IMG/VR virus record: IMGVR_UViG_3300034072_002210
Coordinates: 1-44,810 of that record
Strand: one strand, 5' to 3'
DNA from: a virus
Length of the DNA stretch: 44,810 nucleotides
Each line of letters starts with the position of its first letter. Position 1 is the stretch's first letter. Positions 4,386 to 44,574 of the stretch are shown in pieces. The notes beneath the pieces are model-generated. The model was not told the origin of the DNA. It saw only the letters and a program-made list of their open reading frames with translations, and made no database searches. The translations under genes and the position numbers were made by a program.

Positions 4386-4583
4386 GGGATACTCCTGCTA
4401 ATGGAAGTTTTGCGGTTGCTGGAAGGGCACCACTGCACCCCTCTAGGAACCGGCGGGATCGCTCCCGCTACTTCCTGCCCACCGCTCACCCTCAGGTGTT
4501 AGGTGATGGGCCGTTCCAAGGATCGAAGCGGTCCTGCGCGCTCCCCTTGGTCCGTCCCGGCGGCGTCGCCGCTGCCGGTGCCC

Positions 4584-4650
4584 ATTACCTAGTGATACCA
4601 GATTATGCCGTCAACACGATATTTCGGAATTACGAACTATTTTTTCGGAA
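4584..4650 (-). promoter_or_regulatory. AT-rich island, candidate host-RNA-polymerase early promoter
   Basis: This is the only clearly AT-rich patch in the 885-base non-coding stretch. On the minus strand it carries a TTGACG -35-like box (4614-4609), with GGTAAT 19 bases downstream and CATAAT nearer by; none of the spacings is ideal. T7-like phages place strong host promoters near the left end to drive the first genes, and this island lies about 200 bases upstream of the first left-end gene. Confidence 0.35.
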
Positions 4651-5230
4651 AGCTCGGTTTTCTGCGGGTTTCGACCCCGGAAAAAATGCAGGGCCCGCGC
4701 TCCACCCGCCCCAAACCACAGGCGCGCCGCAGCCGCTCCACAGGGTACGCCGCCCCACGGTTCCGCAGGATGCCACAGGATGCCCTAGGAGGCGCCTAGG
4801 AGCGCTTCGGGATGCGGGAGGGTGTCCAAGTAGCTCTTGGGGTGCCTTGGGCATCTCAGGGCCCTAGGATCGAAAAAAGCAGGGCGTCAGGCAAGGACGC
4901 GCGAACCAATGAGCCTGCCAGCCCCTAGGCTGCCCCGCGCTGCCCCTCGGGTTGGCCACAGGCTGCCCCGCAGGCTGCCCATGGTGCCCCGCAGCGTTCG
5001 GTTGGAACCACGTAGGGGAGAGGAATGGCGGTTTTCTGCGGGTTCCGCTCAAACGTGCCGCCATATCGTGCCATAGGGGATGCCGCCGGTGCCCCCTGCT
5101 TTCCTCTGTAGAGCCCGAAGGCGCCACAGGGCCCCGCAGCGCCCGGCAGGGGCACCCCCAGGGGGGCGGGGGCGGCCAGCGACTCTACGCTATCCCGCTT
5201 CGGATTTTTGCAGCAAAACCAACGGGGTCG

Positions 5231-5251
5231 AATTATCACCCACTCTCGGGG
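5231..5251 (+). promoter_or_regulatory. Phage RNA polymerase promoter on the plus strand (counter-oriented)
   Basis: Reads AATTATCACCCACTCTCGGG, matching the 44331-44351 promoter at 19 of 20 positions, with the predicted +1 at 5248. It is the only one of eight copies that points rightward, into the 3' end of the 72-residue gene and the large terminase, both encoded on the minus strand. It lies close to the inferred right end of the virion genome. Confidence 0.75.
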
Positions 5252-5272
5252 TGGGTTTACCTTAGGGTATAC

Positions 5273-5491
5273 CTAGGAGACCTCGTCCCCAGGGACGCCA
5301 GCAGCCCACCCCATGATCCACTCCAGGTCCTTCCTGGGCAGCTTGAGGGCCTCCAGGGTGCCTCGCACCTCTCGGTGGACCAAGGAGTCCAGCTCGGGGC
5401 TCAGGTGACCCACGGACTCCCGCAGGAGCCTCAGGACCACGTCCAGTGGCAGAGTGATGGTGTGGTGTTCCAGGGCCTTCAGGTGATCCAC
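5273..5491 (-). CDS. Hypothetical late protein downstream of terminase, 72 residues
   Basis: Starts with GTG at 5491, preceded by GAGGA at 6 bases. The protein looks like a compact helical bundle (MDHLKALEHHTITLPLDVV, then LVHREVRGTLEALKLPRKDL). It was chosen over the overlapping 105-residue frame because of its normal amino-acid make-up and ribosome site. It is the last late gene before the presumed genome end. Small genes after terL are common in T7-like phages (19.2-19.5 in T7); no function can be assigned. Confidence 0.6.
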   Translation of the reverse strand: MDHLKALEHHTITLPLDVVLRLLRESVGHLSPELDSLVHREVRGTLEALKLPRKDLEWIMGWAAGVPGDEVS

Positions 5492-5547
5492 AGGGCGTCC
5501 TCAGGGGTTGGTGGGATGGAGGAGGGTACAACTCCTCCCCCATCCAC

Positions 5548-7269
5548 TCAACGCCTTCCCACCGCCCTTCCTCGGCCACGACGGGCAGAGATGCTGGTGG
5601 GCTTCTTCATGAAGGAATGACCAACGGTCCCCTCGAAGAACTTCCGCTCCCACTCGGCATCTGCCTTGCGCTTGCGGTCGTCCTCGGCCTTCTTGGCGTC
5701 AGCATTGAGGTACTCGACCCAGTGCTGCACGCCCATGGCCAGCACGTCGACCATGTCGTCATGCTTGAGCGCCCCTCGGGCGTCGGTCATGTGGGTGAGC
5801 TGGAACATCCCGCAGTGAGCCACGGGCTGTTTGAGGTCGGCCCTCAGGACGTTGGTGTCCATGACGAGGCGGTGCTGGCGCATCGTGGGCTCCAGGGCCC
5901 CGATGATCCGCGCTTCCTTCTGCCCCTTGGCCCGTATGCCCTCGATCCGGCAGGGCCGGAGGCGATTGACGTAGGGTTCGAGGAGCTTGCCGAACATGCC
6001 GTCGCCGAAGTTGTCCTCGGGGACGATGATGTTCACCTCTTCCTCCTGCGCGATCTTGGCCAGGGCAGCGAGGGTCTGGGGGCCGTAGCCGTCCTGGAAC
6101 CCACCCCACCGGGTGACGAAGATGAACCCGCAGAGGAACTTGGTGACCACGTAGGTCGTGCGGTCGCGCCCTCGGCCCGAAGGGTCAATGTGCATGGCGC
6201 TGCCGGTGTACGCCAGGAACTCGGAGGAGACGTGCATCGGCCGGAAGAGCCGGTCGCCGTCGAAGCCGACGTTCTCGATGTCCTTGATGGCGAGGTCGGG
6301 GGACGAGCCCCACACGAGGCGCCCAGGGGCGACCTTCTTGTCCACGTCGGTGACGATCAGGTCCCGCGACTTGAGCGGATACTTCTCGGCGTCCGACAGG
6401 GTCGTGTCGAGCTGGTACTGCAGCAGGAAGCCTGCCGCCCGGTACTCGGTCTCGCGCTCGATCAGGTCGAGGTCGGTGAAGCGGTCGGGATCGGTCGGGG
6501 CTCCGCCCACGGTGGAGCCCACGGGCTTCATCAGGGACGGATCGCGCTCCAGGTCGGCGCGCAGCATCGGCGCCAGGAAGGCACCGTAGTTCGCCAGCTT
6601 GTCAGCCAGCGGGTAGCGCGCGGGCCAGACGCGGACCTCGTAGCCCTTCTCGGGGAGCTTGCGGTAGATCGACTGTTCCGACTGCGGGGTCCCCAGGTAG
6701 AGGATCTCGCCGCCGGGCTTCAGGATCGCCGCCGCTTCCTTGGTCTTGGTCTCCAGCTTCTCCCGCATCGTCTCCGTCTCGGAGTTCTTGGGGACCTCGA
6801 CGTCGTCGAAGAGGACGAGGTCGGCGCGGGAGCCGGTGAGCTGGCCGGTGATGCCCACGGCCTTGACCGAGGGCGACTTGTCGGCCTTCGCAGGGCCGAC
6901 GTCGAAGATGAGGGCAGACGTGCGCTGCCCGGCTCGGGCGCGCAGCTCGTCCCACAGGCCGTCTCCGGCTTCGTGGTCGATGATCTGCTTGATGAAGAGG
7001 GCAATCTCGGTCGCGAAGCTCTCGTTCGCGGACACGATCATGATCTTGAGGTCGGGGTTCTTCCACAGGCGCCAGACCACGTAGGCGGCGGTGAGGAAGG
7101 TCTTGCCGACCCCTCGGAATGCCTGGATGAACCGGCGGCGGCCACCGCCCTGCAGGAAGAGGGCGATATCGAGCTGTACGCGGGTCGGCTGCGGCAGGAG
7201 CAGCAGCTTCGTCCACACGTACCAGAGGAACTTGAGGAAGTTCCCCTGGAGAATGTCACGGGATGTCAT
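5548..7269 (-). CDS. terL: Terminase large subunit (T7 gp19-like)
   Basis: ATPase-nuclease that drives DNA packaging into the prohead and cuts the concatemer. All family motifs are visible in the 573 residues: Walker A QAFRGVGKT (49-57), Walker B LVLFDDVE (151-158), coupling motif YLGTPQ (191-196), and a C-terminal RNase H-like nuclease with Asp362 in HIDPSGRG, the VPEDN pair (418-419) and KHDDMVDVL (503-510). Length matches T7 gp19 (586). It is separated from the small terminase by two genes, whereas in T7 gp18 and gp19 are nearly adjacent. A hairpin with a UUCG loop lies just upstream (7282-7299). A counter-oriented phage promoter downstream could produce antisense RNA across it. Confidence 0.97.
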   Translation of the reverse strand: MTSRDILQGNFLKFLWYVWTKLLLLPQPTRVQLDIALFLQGGGRRRFIQAFRGVGKTFLTAAYVVWRLWKNPDLKIMIVSANESFATEIALFIKQIIDHEAGDGLWDELRARAGQRTSALIFDVGPAKADKSPSVKAVGITGQLTGSRADLVLFDDVEVPKNSETETMREKLETKTKEAAAILKPGGEILYLGTPQSEQSIYRKLPEKGYEVRVWPARYPLADKLANYGAFLAPMLRADLERDPSLMKPVGSTVGGAPTDPDRFTDLDLIERETEYRAAGFLLQYQLDTTLSDAEKYPLKSRDLIVTDVDKKVAPGRLVWGSSPDLAIKDIENVGFDGDRLFRPMHVSSEFLAYTGSAMHIDPSGRGRDRTTYVVTKFLCGFIFVTRWGGFQDGYGPQTLAALAKIAQEEEVNIIVPEDNFGDGMFGKLLEPYVNRLRPCRIEGIRAKGQKEARIIGALEPTMRQHRLVMDTNVLRADLKQPVAHCGMFQLTHMTDARGALKHDDMVDVLAMGVQHWVEYLNADAKKAEDDRKRKADAEWERKFFEGTVGHSFMKKPTSISARRGRGRAVGRR

Positions 7270-28812: not shown

Positions 28813-29093
28813 TAGCGGGACCCCGCTCTGCGGATGGTCTCGCGCTTGAATGCGTCGCGCCAATTCTTGAGGAACAGGACAAGCTCGCGCTTTCCTGCCT
28901 GCCGCTGGATGCTCTCCATGCTGTCCCCGGCTTCGGGGACCCGCTCGGGTACGAGCCGATCCAGCTCGTCGACTAAAGCGACGGCGCTGTCGGGGAATTT
29001 CAGAGGGGGCTGCTCCAGGAAAAAAAGGGGCCGCCTGTTAGGACGACCCCTGAAGGAACCAATGTTTGACCGGAGGGAGGTTTCTCTCTCCAA
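28812..29093 (-). CDS. Conserved-looking phage protein with unclear start
   Basis: The well-formed part is about residues 26-93: LEQPPLKFPDSAVALVDELD, then ESIQRQAGKRELVLFLKNWR, a type often present ahead of gp7.3/portal genes in autographiviruses. No ATG or GTG exists between the upstream in-frame stop and this block: the only standard starts are TTG at 29093, which overlaps the phage promoter and lacks a ribosome site, and an ATG that would cut off half the protein. A CTG at 29018 would begin exactly at the conserved block. A hairpin with a T-run (29020-29050) lies within the first codons of the long frame. The gene is probably real, its start unresolved. Confidence 0.6.
   Translation of the reverse strand: MERETSLRSNIGSFRGRPNRRPLFFLEQPPLKFPDSAVALVDELDRLVPERVPEAGDSMESIQRQAGKRELVLFLKNWRDAFKRETIRRAGSR
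29020..29050 (-). terminator. Terminator-like hairpin 40 bases downstream of a phage promoter
   Basis: On the minus strand GGGGTCGTCC and GGCGGCCCC pair (one bulge, one G-U) around TAACA and are followed by seven T residues, the classic factor-independent terminator layout. The predicted +1 of the phage promoter at 29088-29108 is 41 bases upstream, so transcripts ending here would be about 70 bases. It may only partly stop the phage polymerase, otherwise the structural operon would be shut off. Confidence 0.7.
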
Positions 29094-29108
29094 GAGTGGG
29101 TGTTAATT
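29088..29108 (-). promoter_or_regulatory. Phage promoter for the structural gene block
   Basis: Minus strand reads AATTAACACCCACTCTTGGA; predicted +1 is G at 29091. It overlaps the exonuclease stop codon and precedes the portal/capsid block. No other copy of the motif lies to the left on this strand, so it is the last promoter ahead of all structural genes, comparable to the class III promoters of T7. Confidence 0.85.
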
Positions 29109-34967: not shown

Positions 34968-34988
34968 CCTCCGAGAGTGGGTGTTAAT
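34968..34988 (-). promoter_or_regulatory. Phage promoter with a 12-base leader
   Basis: Minus strand reads ATTAACACCCACTCTCGGAG; predicted +1 is G at 34972, only 12 bases ahead of the ATG at 34960. The transcript's first bases GGAGG form the ribosome binding site. Confidence 0.85.
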
Positions 34989-35488
34989 CAGAAAGGGCGA
35001 TTTCGAGATGCGCGGGACGGCGGGAGCTTGTTCTTCCGCTCCAGGTATTCCTGGTATCCCGCGAGGGCTCGCCAGCAGACCATCGCCCAATGGTCATTGC
35101 CTTTGTCGTCGACTGTGTGGGTGTCGGCCAAATGCCGCAGGATCTTGTTGCGGTGGTCGGTCGACTTGCTCCGGTCCCAGTGCATCGGCTGATCGGGGTG
35201 ATGCTGCTGGGTGGCGCGGAACGAGAGCTTCGCGACTTCGGCCAGGGCGTTCGGGAAATAGTCCAGCAGGCCATCGGCCATCGGATATTCGTTGCGCTTG
35301 TCGGCGTCGTCGGGAAGCGAAGGCAGGTTGGCGATGACTTCCGCCACCTGCGGGGCGACCGGCGGGGCCGGTGGTGTCGGCTGCGGTTCGGTGCGCGCTC
35401 TGGCGCAGCGGCCTGCCTTGCATTCGCGGCAGTGTTCGTGGCTGATGCCGAGGTATTCGCCACAGCACGAGCAATCGTAGTGGGACAT
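34988..35488 (-). CDS. DUF5664-type (dATP/dGTP diphosphohydrolase-like) protein with N-terminal zinc knuckle
   Basis: Residues 1-28 hold a Cys-rich knuckle (CSCC, HEHC, ECKAGRC). After a Pro-rich linker, residues 65-160 match the phage family DUF5664: NEYPMADGLLDYFPNALAEV, QHHPDQPMHWDRSKSTDHRN, ILRHLADTHTVDDKG and AMVCWRALAGYQEYLE. Pfam relates this family to the N-terminal domain of dATP/dGTP diphosphohydrolases, enzymes that reshape nucleotide pools in some phages. The His/Asp-rich HWDRSKSTDH and the surrounding helices would form the metal site. The fusion to a zinc knuckle is not usual in my recollection. The ATG overlaps the helicase stop (TAATG). Confidence 0.75.
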   Translation of the reverse strand: MSHYDCSCCGEYLGISHEHCRECKAGRCARARTEPQPTPPAPPVAPQVAEVIANLPSLPDDADKRNEYPMADGLLDYFPNALAEVAKLSFRATQQHHPDQPMHWDRSKSTDHRNKILRHLADTHTVDDKGNDHWAMVCWRALAGYQEYLERKNKLPPSRASRNRPF

Positions 35489-40536: not shown

Positions 40537-40557
40537 CCCCGAGAGTGGGGGATAATT
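40537..40557 (-). promoter_or_regulatory. Phage promoter ahead of the replication gene group
   Basis: Minus strand AATTATCCCCCACTCTCGGG, identical over 20 bases to the promoter at 44331-44351; predicted +1 at 40540. Downstream the leader contains CTTAGGTT, as does the leader of the other identical copy. Confidence 0.9.
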
Positions 40558-40580
40558 GCCACTCCCGGCCTGAAACGCAG

Positions 40581-40610
40581 AAAAGGGCCCCAGCATTTCT
40601 GCCAGGACCC
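40581..40610 (-). terminator. Terminator with GAAA loop directly behind a phage promoter
   Basis: Minus strand: 11-bp stem (GGGTCCTGGCA with TGCTGGGGCCC, a few G-U pairs) around a GAAA loop and then TTTT. The promoter at 40624-40643 starts its transcript only 16 bases upstream, so a terminated RNA of about 45 bases is expected. It also separates the upstream genes from the promoter at 40537. Confidence 0.8.
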
Positions 40611-40623
40611 TTCGGTTTCATTC

Positions 40624-40643
40624 ACCAGGAGTGGGGGTTAATT
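40624..40643 (-). promoter_or_regulatory. Phage promoter (CCTGG type) ahead of a terminator
   Basis: Minus strand AATTAACCCCCACTCCTGGT; predicted +1 at 40626. It overlaps the stop codon of the small zinc-knuckle gene and is followed immediately by the terminator hairpin 40581-40610. Confidence 0.85.
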
Positions 40644-41588: not shown

Positions 41589-41608
41589 ACCAGGAGTGGG
41601 GGTTAATT
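41589..41608 (-). promoter_or_regulatory. Phage promoter (CCTGG type) behind the RNA polymerase gene
   Basis: Minus strand AATTAACCCCCACTCCTGGT; predicted +1 at 41591, 41 bases before the ATG at 41550. Same 18-base core as the copies at 40624 and 44214. Confidence 0.88.
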
Positions 41609-41643: not shown

Positions 41644-44142
41644 TTATGCGAAGGTGTAATCGGCTTCGAGAATGCGGCTCAGGTCCAGATTCCCGGCCTT
41701 CGGTGGCGCGGGCAGCTCGGCTGCCAGCTCCTCGCCCAGCTGCTCGCACAGCTCGGCATAGAAGCCGCCCAGCACGTCGCCACTGTACTGCTCCACGAAC
41801 GTCTCCCGCAGGATGCGCGAGAGGCGCCCCGTGTTCGCCGCGTGGGTACCGAAGGAGTCGTGGATCACGGCCAGCTGGGTGATCCCTTCCCGCTTCGCCC
41901 GCAGCGCGACGGCCTGCAGGTGCGAGGCGTCGAGCGAGTGGACGAAGTTGGGGGCCACGCCGTTGGCCTGGGCGCGACCGTCGAGGTCCTGCGTCTCGAC
42001 CTGGACGACCATGCGGACGCGCGAGCCCTGCCAGTGGACTTCGACGCGCTCGCCCTTGGTCGCCTTGTACTCCTGCAGGATCGGCAGGCCCATCGGGGTC
42101 GTCCACCACAGGGGCAGCCCGCCCTTCGCCGCCACCTTAGCTGCCTCGCGCAGCCATTCCATCGCCGCTGCGGCAGCCGGAACAGTGTCGCTAATGGAAC
42201 TAAACATGACGTGCGAGAGCCACATGGCGCAGTGGTAGTTGTCCGCGCCGCCGAGGTACGGGCCCTTCCCCTCCTTCGCCAGATCCCGGTCCAGCTCCTT
42301 CAGGGTCTGGACGATCATCCCGCCCATCCCGAAGCGGGTGGCCGAGTAGCAGAAGGTCATGGTCGGGCGCTTGGCGATGCTGCGCTTCACCATGCCGCCC
42401 ATCCACGGGTTCGGGATCGTGACGTCCTCCTCCTCGCCATCCCGCTTCACCGTGTAGGTGATGTACGGGGTGGCATCAGCGACGGCCTGGGCCTTGGCTG
42501 CGGCCCGCATGTAGATGTCCTGCGGACGATCTGCAGGCAGCAGGTTCACGGCAGCGCCGCCCTCCTCGTCCCGCAACATGGCCGAGAAGTGCTGGATGCC
42601 CGAGCAGGAGCCGTCCAGCGCAACCGGGATGCGCGACACGTAGGTCGTGGGGTCACCCGAGGCGTATGCCTGGGCCAGCTCGATGCACGCCGCCAGGGCG
42701 CAGAACGGGCTGTCGGCAGTCGCCCAGAAGCGCTGACCGTCCAGCGGGTCGTTGCCGCTGTCCAGCAGGGCTTCGATGTTGTCGATGGTCCACTGCTCGC
42801 GCTCCGCGAACGGCACCTTGTCGACGCCGAACAGGTTGGCGATGTGGATCGACAGCCAGCGGAACCCTTCGAGACCCAGAGGCATCCCGTGGGCGAAGTG
42901 GAGGAGCGCCTTCTGCCAATCGCAGCCCTGCGGGCTCGGGCCAGCGTTCGGGATCGGGTAGACCCGGCCCCGGAAGTCCAGCTCGTGCGGATAGTAGATG
43001 GCGTCCTCGTCCGCATACTTGCGGGCGATCCACAGGCCCTGGTGGATGGACAGGCGGGCAGACCGCAGCTCGGCGTCCTCGGCGTAGACCTCGGCTGCCT
43101 CGCGCTTCCACTGCATGCGCGCTTCCTCATTCTCCTCGAAGTCTTCCGGCCGCGCTGGGAGCTTCTCCAGGACGTCCTTCTGATCCGGCAGGCCACCGAG
43201 GGAGCTGCCGGTCTTCCACAGGGTGTCGAGGACCTCCAGGACGTCGCGATTGATCCGCCACGGGCTGTCCTGGATGTGGTTCACGCTCTCATAGACCCGC
43301 GACAGGTCCATGTGCTTGACCTCCTCGTGATAGGCAGCGTTGCGCTGCTTCACGAAGCGGTTGCCGTGGCGCCGGGTGACGTACCCGCCGTAGGTCGGCG
43401 AGCGCCAGCGGCGCGGACGGACCACCATAGGCATGTTGATCGGCGCGAGGAGCGAGCAGCGGGCGTGCTGCTTGTCCAGCCAATCCCGCAGCGCGCCGGT
43501 GGTGGTCAGGGCATAGGCGTAGCCGTTGGCGCGGCGCACCTTGTCCAGCTCGAACAGGCCGGTTGCCTCGATCACCAGTTCCACGCACTTCGTGCCGATG
43601 GAGACGCGCTCCTCCTTGGAGACCGAGCGGGCCACGCCCTCGCTCTCGAACAGCTTCTTCACGGCGCTCTTGCGCTGACGCGAGTAGGACCCGCGCGCCT
43701 CCTGCGCCTTGAGGAAGCCCTTGTAGCCCTTCCGGTTCATCTCGCGGAACGACTTGAACTCCATGTTCTCGATCAGCGCGTCGGCCACCTGGACCGCCAC
43801 GTTCTGGAGCAAGGTCTGCTCCATACTGTTGTTCACCATCACGCGAGCCGTGAGGTACGCGACCTCCTTCGGATCGGTGAGCAGCAGGAAGTCCACGGCG
43901 CGGTGCAGGCGTCCCGCCTTGCGCTCGCATGCCTCCTGCAGGAATGCCTCAATGGCCTGGGCGACGGGCTCGATGCACAGCTTCAGCAGCTGGTGGCCCG
44001 GCGGAAGGTTCGCCTCCTCGTCGGCGGCGCCCGCCTCTGCCTTCCAGGGCAGCTCGCGGTTGTTGTAGCGACTCGCGCCGAGCGAGCGGCCCTCGTCTTC
44101 CAGCTCGATCTGACGACGAAGCTGCGCACGAAAATCGGTCAT
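41644..44142 (-). CDS. Single-subunit DNA-directed RNA polymerase (T7 gp1-like)
   Basis: Transcribes the middle and late phage genes from its own promoters. The start at 44142 (MTDFRAQLRRQIELEDEGRS) has GGAAGG upstream; 832 residues compare with 883 in T7. Catalytic residues: Asp510 (VALDGSCSGIQHF), Lys591 and Tyr599 (AKRPTMTFCYS), Asp762 (VIHDSFGTHAA), plus PNFVHSLDASHL. The specificity loop (about 691-715, EYKATKGERVEVHWQGSRVR) has Arg699 and Glu701 where T7 has Arg746 and Asn748; T3 has Asp at the latter site. The chain ends in Phe-Ala (DYTFA), as does T7 polymerase (FAFA). Two phage promoters lie upstream, implying positive feedback once any polymerase is made. Confidence 0.98.
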   Translation of the reverse strand: MTDFRAQLRRQIELEDEGRSLGASRYNNRELPWKAEAGAADEEANLPPGHQLLKLCIEPVAQAIEAFLQEACERKAGRLHRAVDFLLLTDPKEVAYLTARVMVNNSMEQTLLQNVAVQVADALIENMEFKSFREMNRKGYKGFLKAQEARGSYSRQRKSAVKKLFESEGVARSVSKEERVSIGTKCVELVIEATGLFELDKVRRANGYAYALTTTGALRDWLDKQHARCSLLAPINMPMVVRPRRWRSPTYGGYVTRRHGNRFVKQRNAAYHEEVKHMDLSRVYESVNHIQDSPWRINRDVLEVLDTLWKTGSSLGGLPDQKDVLEKLPARPEDFEENEEARMQWKREAAEVYAEDAELRSARLSIHQGLWIARKYADEDAIYYPHELDFRGRVYPIPNAGPSPQGCDWQKALLHFAHGMPLGLEGFRWLSIHIANLFGVDKVPFAEREQWTIDNIEALLDSGNDPLDGQRFWATADSPFCALAACIELAQAYASGDPTTYVSRIPVALDGSCSGIQHFSAMLRDEEGGAAVNLLPADRPQDIYMRAAAKAQAVADATPYITYTVKRDGEEEDVTIPNPWMGGMVKRSIAKRPTMTFCYSATRFGMGGMIVQTLKELDRDLAKEGKGPYLGGADNYHCAMWLSHVMFSSISDTVPAAAAAMEWLREAAKVAAKGGLPLWWTTPMGLPILQEYKATKGERVEVHWQGSRVRMVVQVETQDLDGRAQANGVAPNFVHSLDASHLQAVALRAKREGITQLAVIHDSFGTHAANTGRLSRILRETFVEQYSGDVLGGFYAELCEQLGEELAAELPAPPKAGNLDLSRILEADYTFA

Positions 44143-44168
44143 TGGGATTCCTTCCGGTCTAGGGATGA

Positions 44169-44187
44169 GGGCTGCCGAACGCAGCCC
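44169..44187 (-). other. Hairpin in the RNA polymerase leader
   Basis: GGGCTGC and GCAGCCC pair around a 5-base loop, 27 bases upstream of the RNA polymerase start and just downstream of the promoter at 44214-44233. There is no U-tract. It may stabilise the 5' end of the message or tune translation. Confidence 0.45.
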
Positions 44188-44213
44188 GAGGGGTGGCGCC
44201 GAGTGGTTCTCGG

Positions 44214-44233
44214 GCCAGGAGTGGGGGTTAATT
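44214..44233 (-). promoter_or_regulatory. Phage promoter (CCTGG type) ahead of its own RNA polymerase gene
   Basis: Minus strand AATTAACCCCCACTCCTGGC; predicted +1 at 44216, 73 bases ahead of the RNA polymerase start. The core AATTAACCC-CACT is shared with the phage T3 promoter. Confidence 0.9.
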
Positions 44234-44330
44234 GCCGGGTGCCTCTGCGATGCACGCACGGGGGCGCAGCGCGCCGGGCGCGGCACCTGAGGGTGAACCT
44301 GAGAGAAACCTAAGGGAGGCGGTACGCACC

Positions 44331-44351
44331 GCCCGAGAGTGGGGGATAATT
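44331..44351 (-). promoter_or_regulatory. Phage promoter, outermost copy upstream of RNA polymerase
   Basis: Minus strand AATTATCCCCCACTCTCGGG, with predicted +1 at 44334. The transcript would open with a 6-bp hairpin (GGCGGT GCGT ACCGCC) and contains CCTTAGGTT. It lies about 150 bases from the tRNA, on the prophage side. Confidence 0.9.
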
Positions 44352-44500: not shown

Positions 44501-44574
44501 TGGAGCGGGTGAAGGGAATCGAACCCTCGTCGTAAGCTTGGGAAGCTTCTGCTCTACCATTGAGCTACACCCGC
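44501..44574 (-). tRNA. tRNA-Gly (CCC), probable integration site
   Basis: A 74-base tRNA including an encoded 3' CCA folds into a full cloverleaf: 7-bp acceptor stem (GCGGGTG with CACCCGC), D arm GCTC...GAGC, anticodon loop TTCCCAA (anticodon CCC), and T arm GAGGG TTCGATT CCCTT. Position 73 is U. The prophage begins right after its 3' end, as is usual for tyrosine-recombinase phages that use the 3' half of a tRNA as attB, leaving the gene intact. The duplicated 3' part should lie just beyond base 1 of the window. Confidence 0.93.

Follow-up and report, generated by a model that had tools for sequence, protein, structure and literature searches.

A backward phage promoter beside the predicted right terminal repeat in a clade of T7-like phages

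Transcription by the phage RNA polymerase is known to be necessary for DNA packaging in T3 and T7, whereas the task of the polymerase at the genome end is unsettled. A passage in PMC1828717 states that packaging of both phages in vivo depends on this transcription and that promoters are embedded in the packaging sites, citing Hashimoto and Fujisawa (1992) and Zhang and Studier (1995, 2004). T7 and T3 (phiOR) as well as LUZ100 (phi8) have a phage-polymerase promoter of near full consensus sequence between terL and the right terminal repeat. All three run with the genes, as the original prediction had said of the end promoters of T7 and as we confirmed in T7 and T3, whereas the promoter described here faces backward. 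The strong promoter matches in T3 and SP6 are likewise all forward.

The DNA analysed here, called the window, is the entire 44,810 bases of virus record IMGVR_UViG_3300034072_002210, and the phage is T7-like and temperate. The minus strand carries its main genes, which encode an RNA polymerase, primase/helicase, DNA polymerase, exonuclease, portal, scaffold, capsid, tail and internal virion proteins, the large terminase subunit and an integrase; a phage RNA polymerase together with replication and virion genes of the T7 type, all on one strand, is what characterizes Autographiviridae-like phages. The nearest annotated isolates by RNA polymerase are "Mycobacterium phage jiawei" and Caulobacter phage S2B (identity 51-52%), and S2B also carries an integrase. 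The phage called jiawei (OR464703.1, L089) is S2B-like in its RNA polymerase, gene order and end motifs, and S2B-like phages of this kind occur in alphaproteobacteria, such that its host label may merit checking. A complete tRNA-Gly (CCC) gene at 44501-44574 (minus strand) lies between the RNA polymerase gene and the right edge of the window, and the integrase gene stops at base 1; the tRNA gene is a likely attachment site, and the sequence could therefore represent either a prophage or a circle opened at the tRNA-Gly/integrase junction. In a relative from Novosphingobium lindaniclasticum, it is a tRNA-Pro gene that precedes the RNA polymerase gene. The features of the window are:

1287-1, minus strand: integrase gene, with its stop at window base 1
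4872-4884, plus strand: conserved GAAAAAAGCAGGG mark bordering the predicted terminal repeat on the side opposite to the right-end element (homology to S2B; relatives)
4885-5192, no strand: predicted virion terminal direct repeat of about 308 bp (boundaries by homology to S2B)
5198-5226, no strand: conserved right-end element CTTCGGATTTTTGCAGCAAAACCAACGGG, candidate terminase recognition or cut region (conserved in the clade; in S2B the homologous element adjoins the annotated terminal repeat)
5231-5249, plus strand: backward phage-polymerase promoter, -17 to +2, predicted +1 at 5248, heading left on the phage map and antisense into terL (weight matrix, shuffles, conservation in 19 phages)
5238-5256, no strand: palindrome across the start site, 8-bp stem and 3-nt loop (self-complementarity)
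5250-5280, plus strand: initially transcribed region, a G-rich start and then an A+T-richer stretch with CCTTAGG/CCTAGG motifs (G+C comparison)
5513-5545, minus strand: G+C-rich hairpin directly after the terL stop, with no U-run on either side and similar in many relatives; possibly a late terminator, processing or pause site
5548-7269, minus strand: terL, large terminase subunit, the final late gene (phrog_38, E=1e-112)
29090-29108, minus strand: forward phage promoter ahead of the late/structural block (weight matrix; shuffle test)
34971-34989, minus strand: forward phage promoter (weight matrix; shuffle test)
40539-40557, minus strand: forward phage promoter closest to the backward one, sharing the GGGGTGGG start and a downstream CTTAGG (weight matrix)
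40625-40643, minus strand: forward phage promoter in tandem with the one at 40557 (weight matrix)
41590-41608, minus strand: forward phage promoter (weight matrix)
41644-44286, minus strand: single-subunit phage RNA polymerase gene (phrog_414, E=2e-245)
44215-44233, minus strand: forward phage promoter (weight matrix)
44333-44351, minus strand: forward phage promoter (weight matrix; shuffle test)

The promoters of the window are T3-like (AATTAWCMCCCACTCYYGG), and the plus strand at 5231-5249 reads AATTATCACCCACTCTCGG, a near-perfect copy of the phage's own consensus from -17 to +2 in a genome that encodes the cognate polymerase. A single base separates it from the copies at 40557 and 44351, in agreement with the claim that it is nearly identical to the strongest forward sites. 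Matches with at most 3 mismatches numbered 5 in the window against 0.01 expected from dinucleotide shuffles, which together with the covariation described below (p<1e-5) rules out a chance match. A scan with a weight matrix built from all eight sites returned seven on the minus strand, with the genes, one strong site on the plus strand, at 5231, and no further strong match. Both the phage type of the promoter and its backward orientation were thereby borne out, and one of the eight promoters opposes the genes. The tandem pair at 40539-40643 (minus strand), downstream of the RNA polymerase gene, could, by analogy with T3 and its annotated origin, be the primary origin of replication.

Relatives by terL were drawn from IMG/VR, from the assembly of N. 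lindaniclasticum LE124 and from a single chromosome (G059, 2.7 Mb) that belongs to the same family. Once near-identical contigs had been collapsed, 19 distinct phages, the window included, each showed one backward T3-type promoter between terL and the boundary element. These phages are temperate and T7-like, and they form a single clade in the terL tree (support 100/99), which corresponds to one inferred change. Absence of the site from relatives, which had been named as grounds for abandoning the idea, is thus not what we observed, since both position and orientation are kept, and a single-genome oddity is ruled out. In the genomes with enough sequence elsewhere, the backward site is the single exception to gene direction: the 45 forward sites tabulated, from 11 genomes, all point in the same direction as the genes. 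The copies in N. lindaniclasticum and G059 come from bacterial assemblies, which excludes an artefact of metagenome assembly. The isolated phages in the collection showed no meaningful DNA similarity to this region.

The recognition bases diverge strongly between the phages, for example AATTAGGCCGCACCC, AATTACTGCCACCC, AATTAGTGCAGACC and AATTAACACGCACT, and the backward site follows the forward sites of its own genome. The summed mean mismatch between backward and own forward sites was 12.7, compared to 50.0 for shuffled pairings, and none of 100,000 permutations was as low (p<1e-5, in a test that ignores the relatedness among the phages). The most divergent specificities (G021, G012, G009 and G005) were each a good match to themselves only. 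De novo clustering of 21-mers recovered the promoters of G021 and missed those of S2B, jiawei, G016, G020, G026, G027 and G017; a looser search yielded those of S2B and jiawei. A functionless copy would fall behind the polymerase, and the covariation therefore indicates that the backward site is maintained as a promoter for each phage's own polymerase. In view of this and of its conservation, it is scarcely credible that the site is a non-functional relic or a promoter that arose by chance.

The virion ends of the window can be placed with the help of S2B, in which a 259-bp terminal repeat is annotated immediately beyond terL and the integrase lies between the early region and the RNA polymerase gene. 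Two motifs mark the boundaries of the S2B repeat, CTTCGGATTT inside the right end and GAAAAAAGCAGGG at the opposite edge, and both are also present in the window (5198 and 4872) and in the relatives; across the clade, the boundary core and the left mark are 260-329 bp apart. By this homology the terminal repeat of the window would span approximately 4885-5192. The promoter would then lie about 40 bp from the repeat, outside it and on the terL side, that is, between terL and the right terminal repeat as phiOR does. That the site is near the right end of the virion, as originally predicted, is thus a well-supported inference: no late gene follows terL, and the site is just inside the boundary homologous to that of the S2B repeat. 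On the early-gene side, the 5 kb next to the predicted repeat contained no other promoter match. Many short repeats of the CCTAGG/CCTTAGG type flank the predicted repeat on both sides (4500-5280), and these are reminiscent of the short repeats that flank the terminal repeat of T7.

The promoter is locked to this boundary. The AAAATCCGAA core of the right-end element is 22 bp from the promoter edge in the window and in 11 of the 19 phages overall, with distances of 24 bp in one, 31-33 bp in five, and 46 and 48 bp in the remaining two. The series 22, 31-33 and 46-48 bp is suggestive of strict helical phasing, the independent values being too few for a claim. On the other side, the distance to the terL stop ranges from 87 to 655 bp, and in L011 and L012 an extra open reading frame lies in between. 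Ungapped identity among the 19 phages is about 0.65-0.7 over the promoter and the first ten transcribed bases and falls to a background level of about 0.3 from about +10.

One role considered for such a promoter is to hold back terL or late readthrough, through antisense RNA or head-on transcription. The predicted transcript does enter terL antisense, and antisense RNA has been described in LUZ100, a T7-like phage with temperate features, although there it arises beyond the capsid gene, in the structural region, and not at the right-end packaging site (PMC10134795). The variable distance to terL and the unconserved RNA sequence nevertheless disfavour the antisense control of terminase put forward in the original prediction, as does a promoter that is fixed on its repeat side and not on its gene side, and we consider this explanation improbable. 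The 72-residue gene that the transcript was also said to oppose (5273-5491, minus strand) is present as an open reading frame; it has no PHROG match and its status as a gene was not upheld. Still less likely is a functional noncoding RNA or peptide, such as a packaging RNA. The strong and well-kept promoter with its G-rich start would suit such a product, but identity has dropped to background by about +10, and alignment of positions +1 to +105 (MAFFT/RNAalifold) gave no consensus fold.

A role in cis is instead suggested by a site that is locked to a genome-end element, indifferent to the distance to terL and followed by a transcript that is not conserved. Since packaging in T3 and T7 relies on phage-polymerase transcription and on promoters within the packaging sites, the site may be the clade's reversed counterpart of phiOR, which would put the polymerase at the right-end packaging or maturation site; on the sequence evidence we give this interpretation an even chance. 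The phage polymerase would initiate about 50 bp inboard of the predicted terminal repeat and depart leftward, away from the cut site, and its presence or movement at the end, rather than its RNA, would help the terminase to recognize and process the concatemer. A mark at the concatemer junction, one of three roles originally suggested, is the best supported of them because of the tie to the boundary element. Several observations count against the packaging interpretation. As phiOR in T7 and T3 has the opposite direction, a mechanism in which the polymerase travels through the repeat would not apply, the sister lineage, that of S2B and jiawei, is without a phage promoter at this place, and the terminal repeat was placed by homology alone.

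The main rival to the packaging interpretation is a leftward replication origin at the right end, also among the three roles originally suggested, in which RNA from the backward promoter would prime the phage DNA polymerase for leading-strand synthesis leftward. We regard this as possible, if rather unlikely, and the two roles could also be combined. The G+C content of positions +8 to +40 is 0.43 after the backward promoters and 0.55 after the forward ones (p=7e-4), a modest A+T enrichment in a comparison that is biased because the forward promoters adjoin genes; such a region suits an origin as well as it suits packaging. Backward sites are also more self-complementary than forward sites (mean -9.1 compared to -5.0 kcal/mol, Mann-Whitney p=1e-4), with the same confounding by genes next to the forward sites. 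Furthermore, the backward site is most like the forward promoter at 40557, one of the tandem pair that follows the RNA polymerase gene, at the place of the annotated primary origin in T3, and the sequence of a primer need not be conserved. However, an origin does not by itself account for the near-fixed spacing to the boundary element.

In S2B and jiawei, no backward phage promoter was found near the repeat with their own consensus sequences (3 forward sites each). S2B, jiawei and three further sequences (L031, L028 and L029) instead have a backward TTGAAA-N16-TACGTA at the position that the backward phage promoter occupies in the window's clade, and another (L044) has TTGAAA-N16-TATCTA, also backward, at the same place. 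The backward TTGAAA motif occurs once per sequence searched (L088:299, L089:493, L031:6728, L028:2374, L029:7134 and L044:11866). In S2B and jiawei the motif matches the clade's promoter in place and orientation but not the phage promoter consensus of these phages, and TTGAAA-N16-TACGTA may be a sigma70-like host-type promoter in the same role. If so, the orientation would outlast the choice of polymerase, which we offer as a lead only. A more far-reaching and doubtful hypothesis is that a phage-polymerase promoter aimed away from the right-end cut is an essential part of the packaging site in this clade and replaces the forward phiOR and phiOL. Departure of the polymerase from the junction, and neither RNA nor readthrough, would then license the terminase, and a host-type backward promoter would do the same job in the sister lineage.

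A phage promoter at the genome end is known as such; for the reversed orientation, we found no report in a literature search of open-licence papers. The clade provides a natural, ready-made test of packaging models: if packaging in these phages is equally dependent on transcription, models that require the polymerase to pass through the repeat are excluded. Likewise, the promoter and the boundary element together offer a simple mark by which genuine genome ends could be located in T7-like phages and prophages that have not been cultured. Compared with the known systems, the promoter of the clade shares its position between terL and the predicted right terminal repeat with phiOR, whereas phiOR is directed towards the right end, as the genes are, and the clade's promoter faces backward in 19 of 19 phages; it also lies about 40-65 bp from the predicted repeat, as opposed to about 520-550 bp from the repeat in T3 and T7. 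The E. coli promoter A0 of T3 is likewise leftward at the genome end, but it is of the host sigma70 type, with its hexamers inside the terminal repeat, whereas the site in the window is of the phage-polymerase type and lies outside the predicted repeat.
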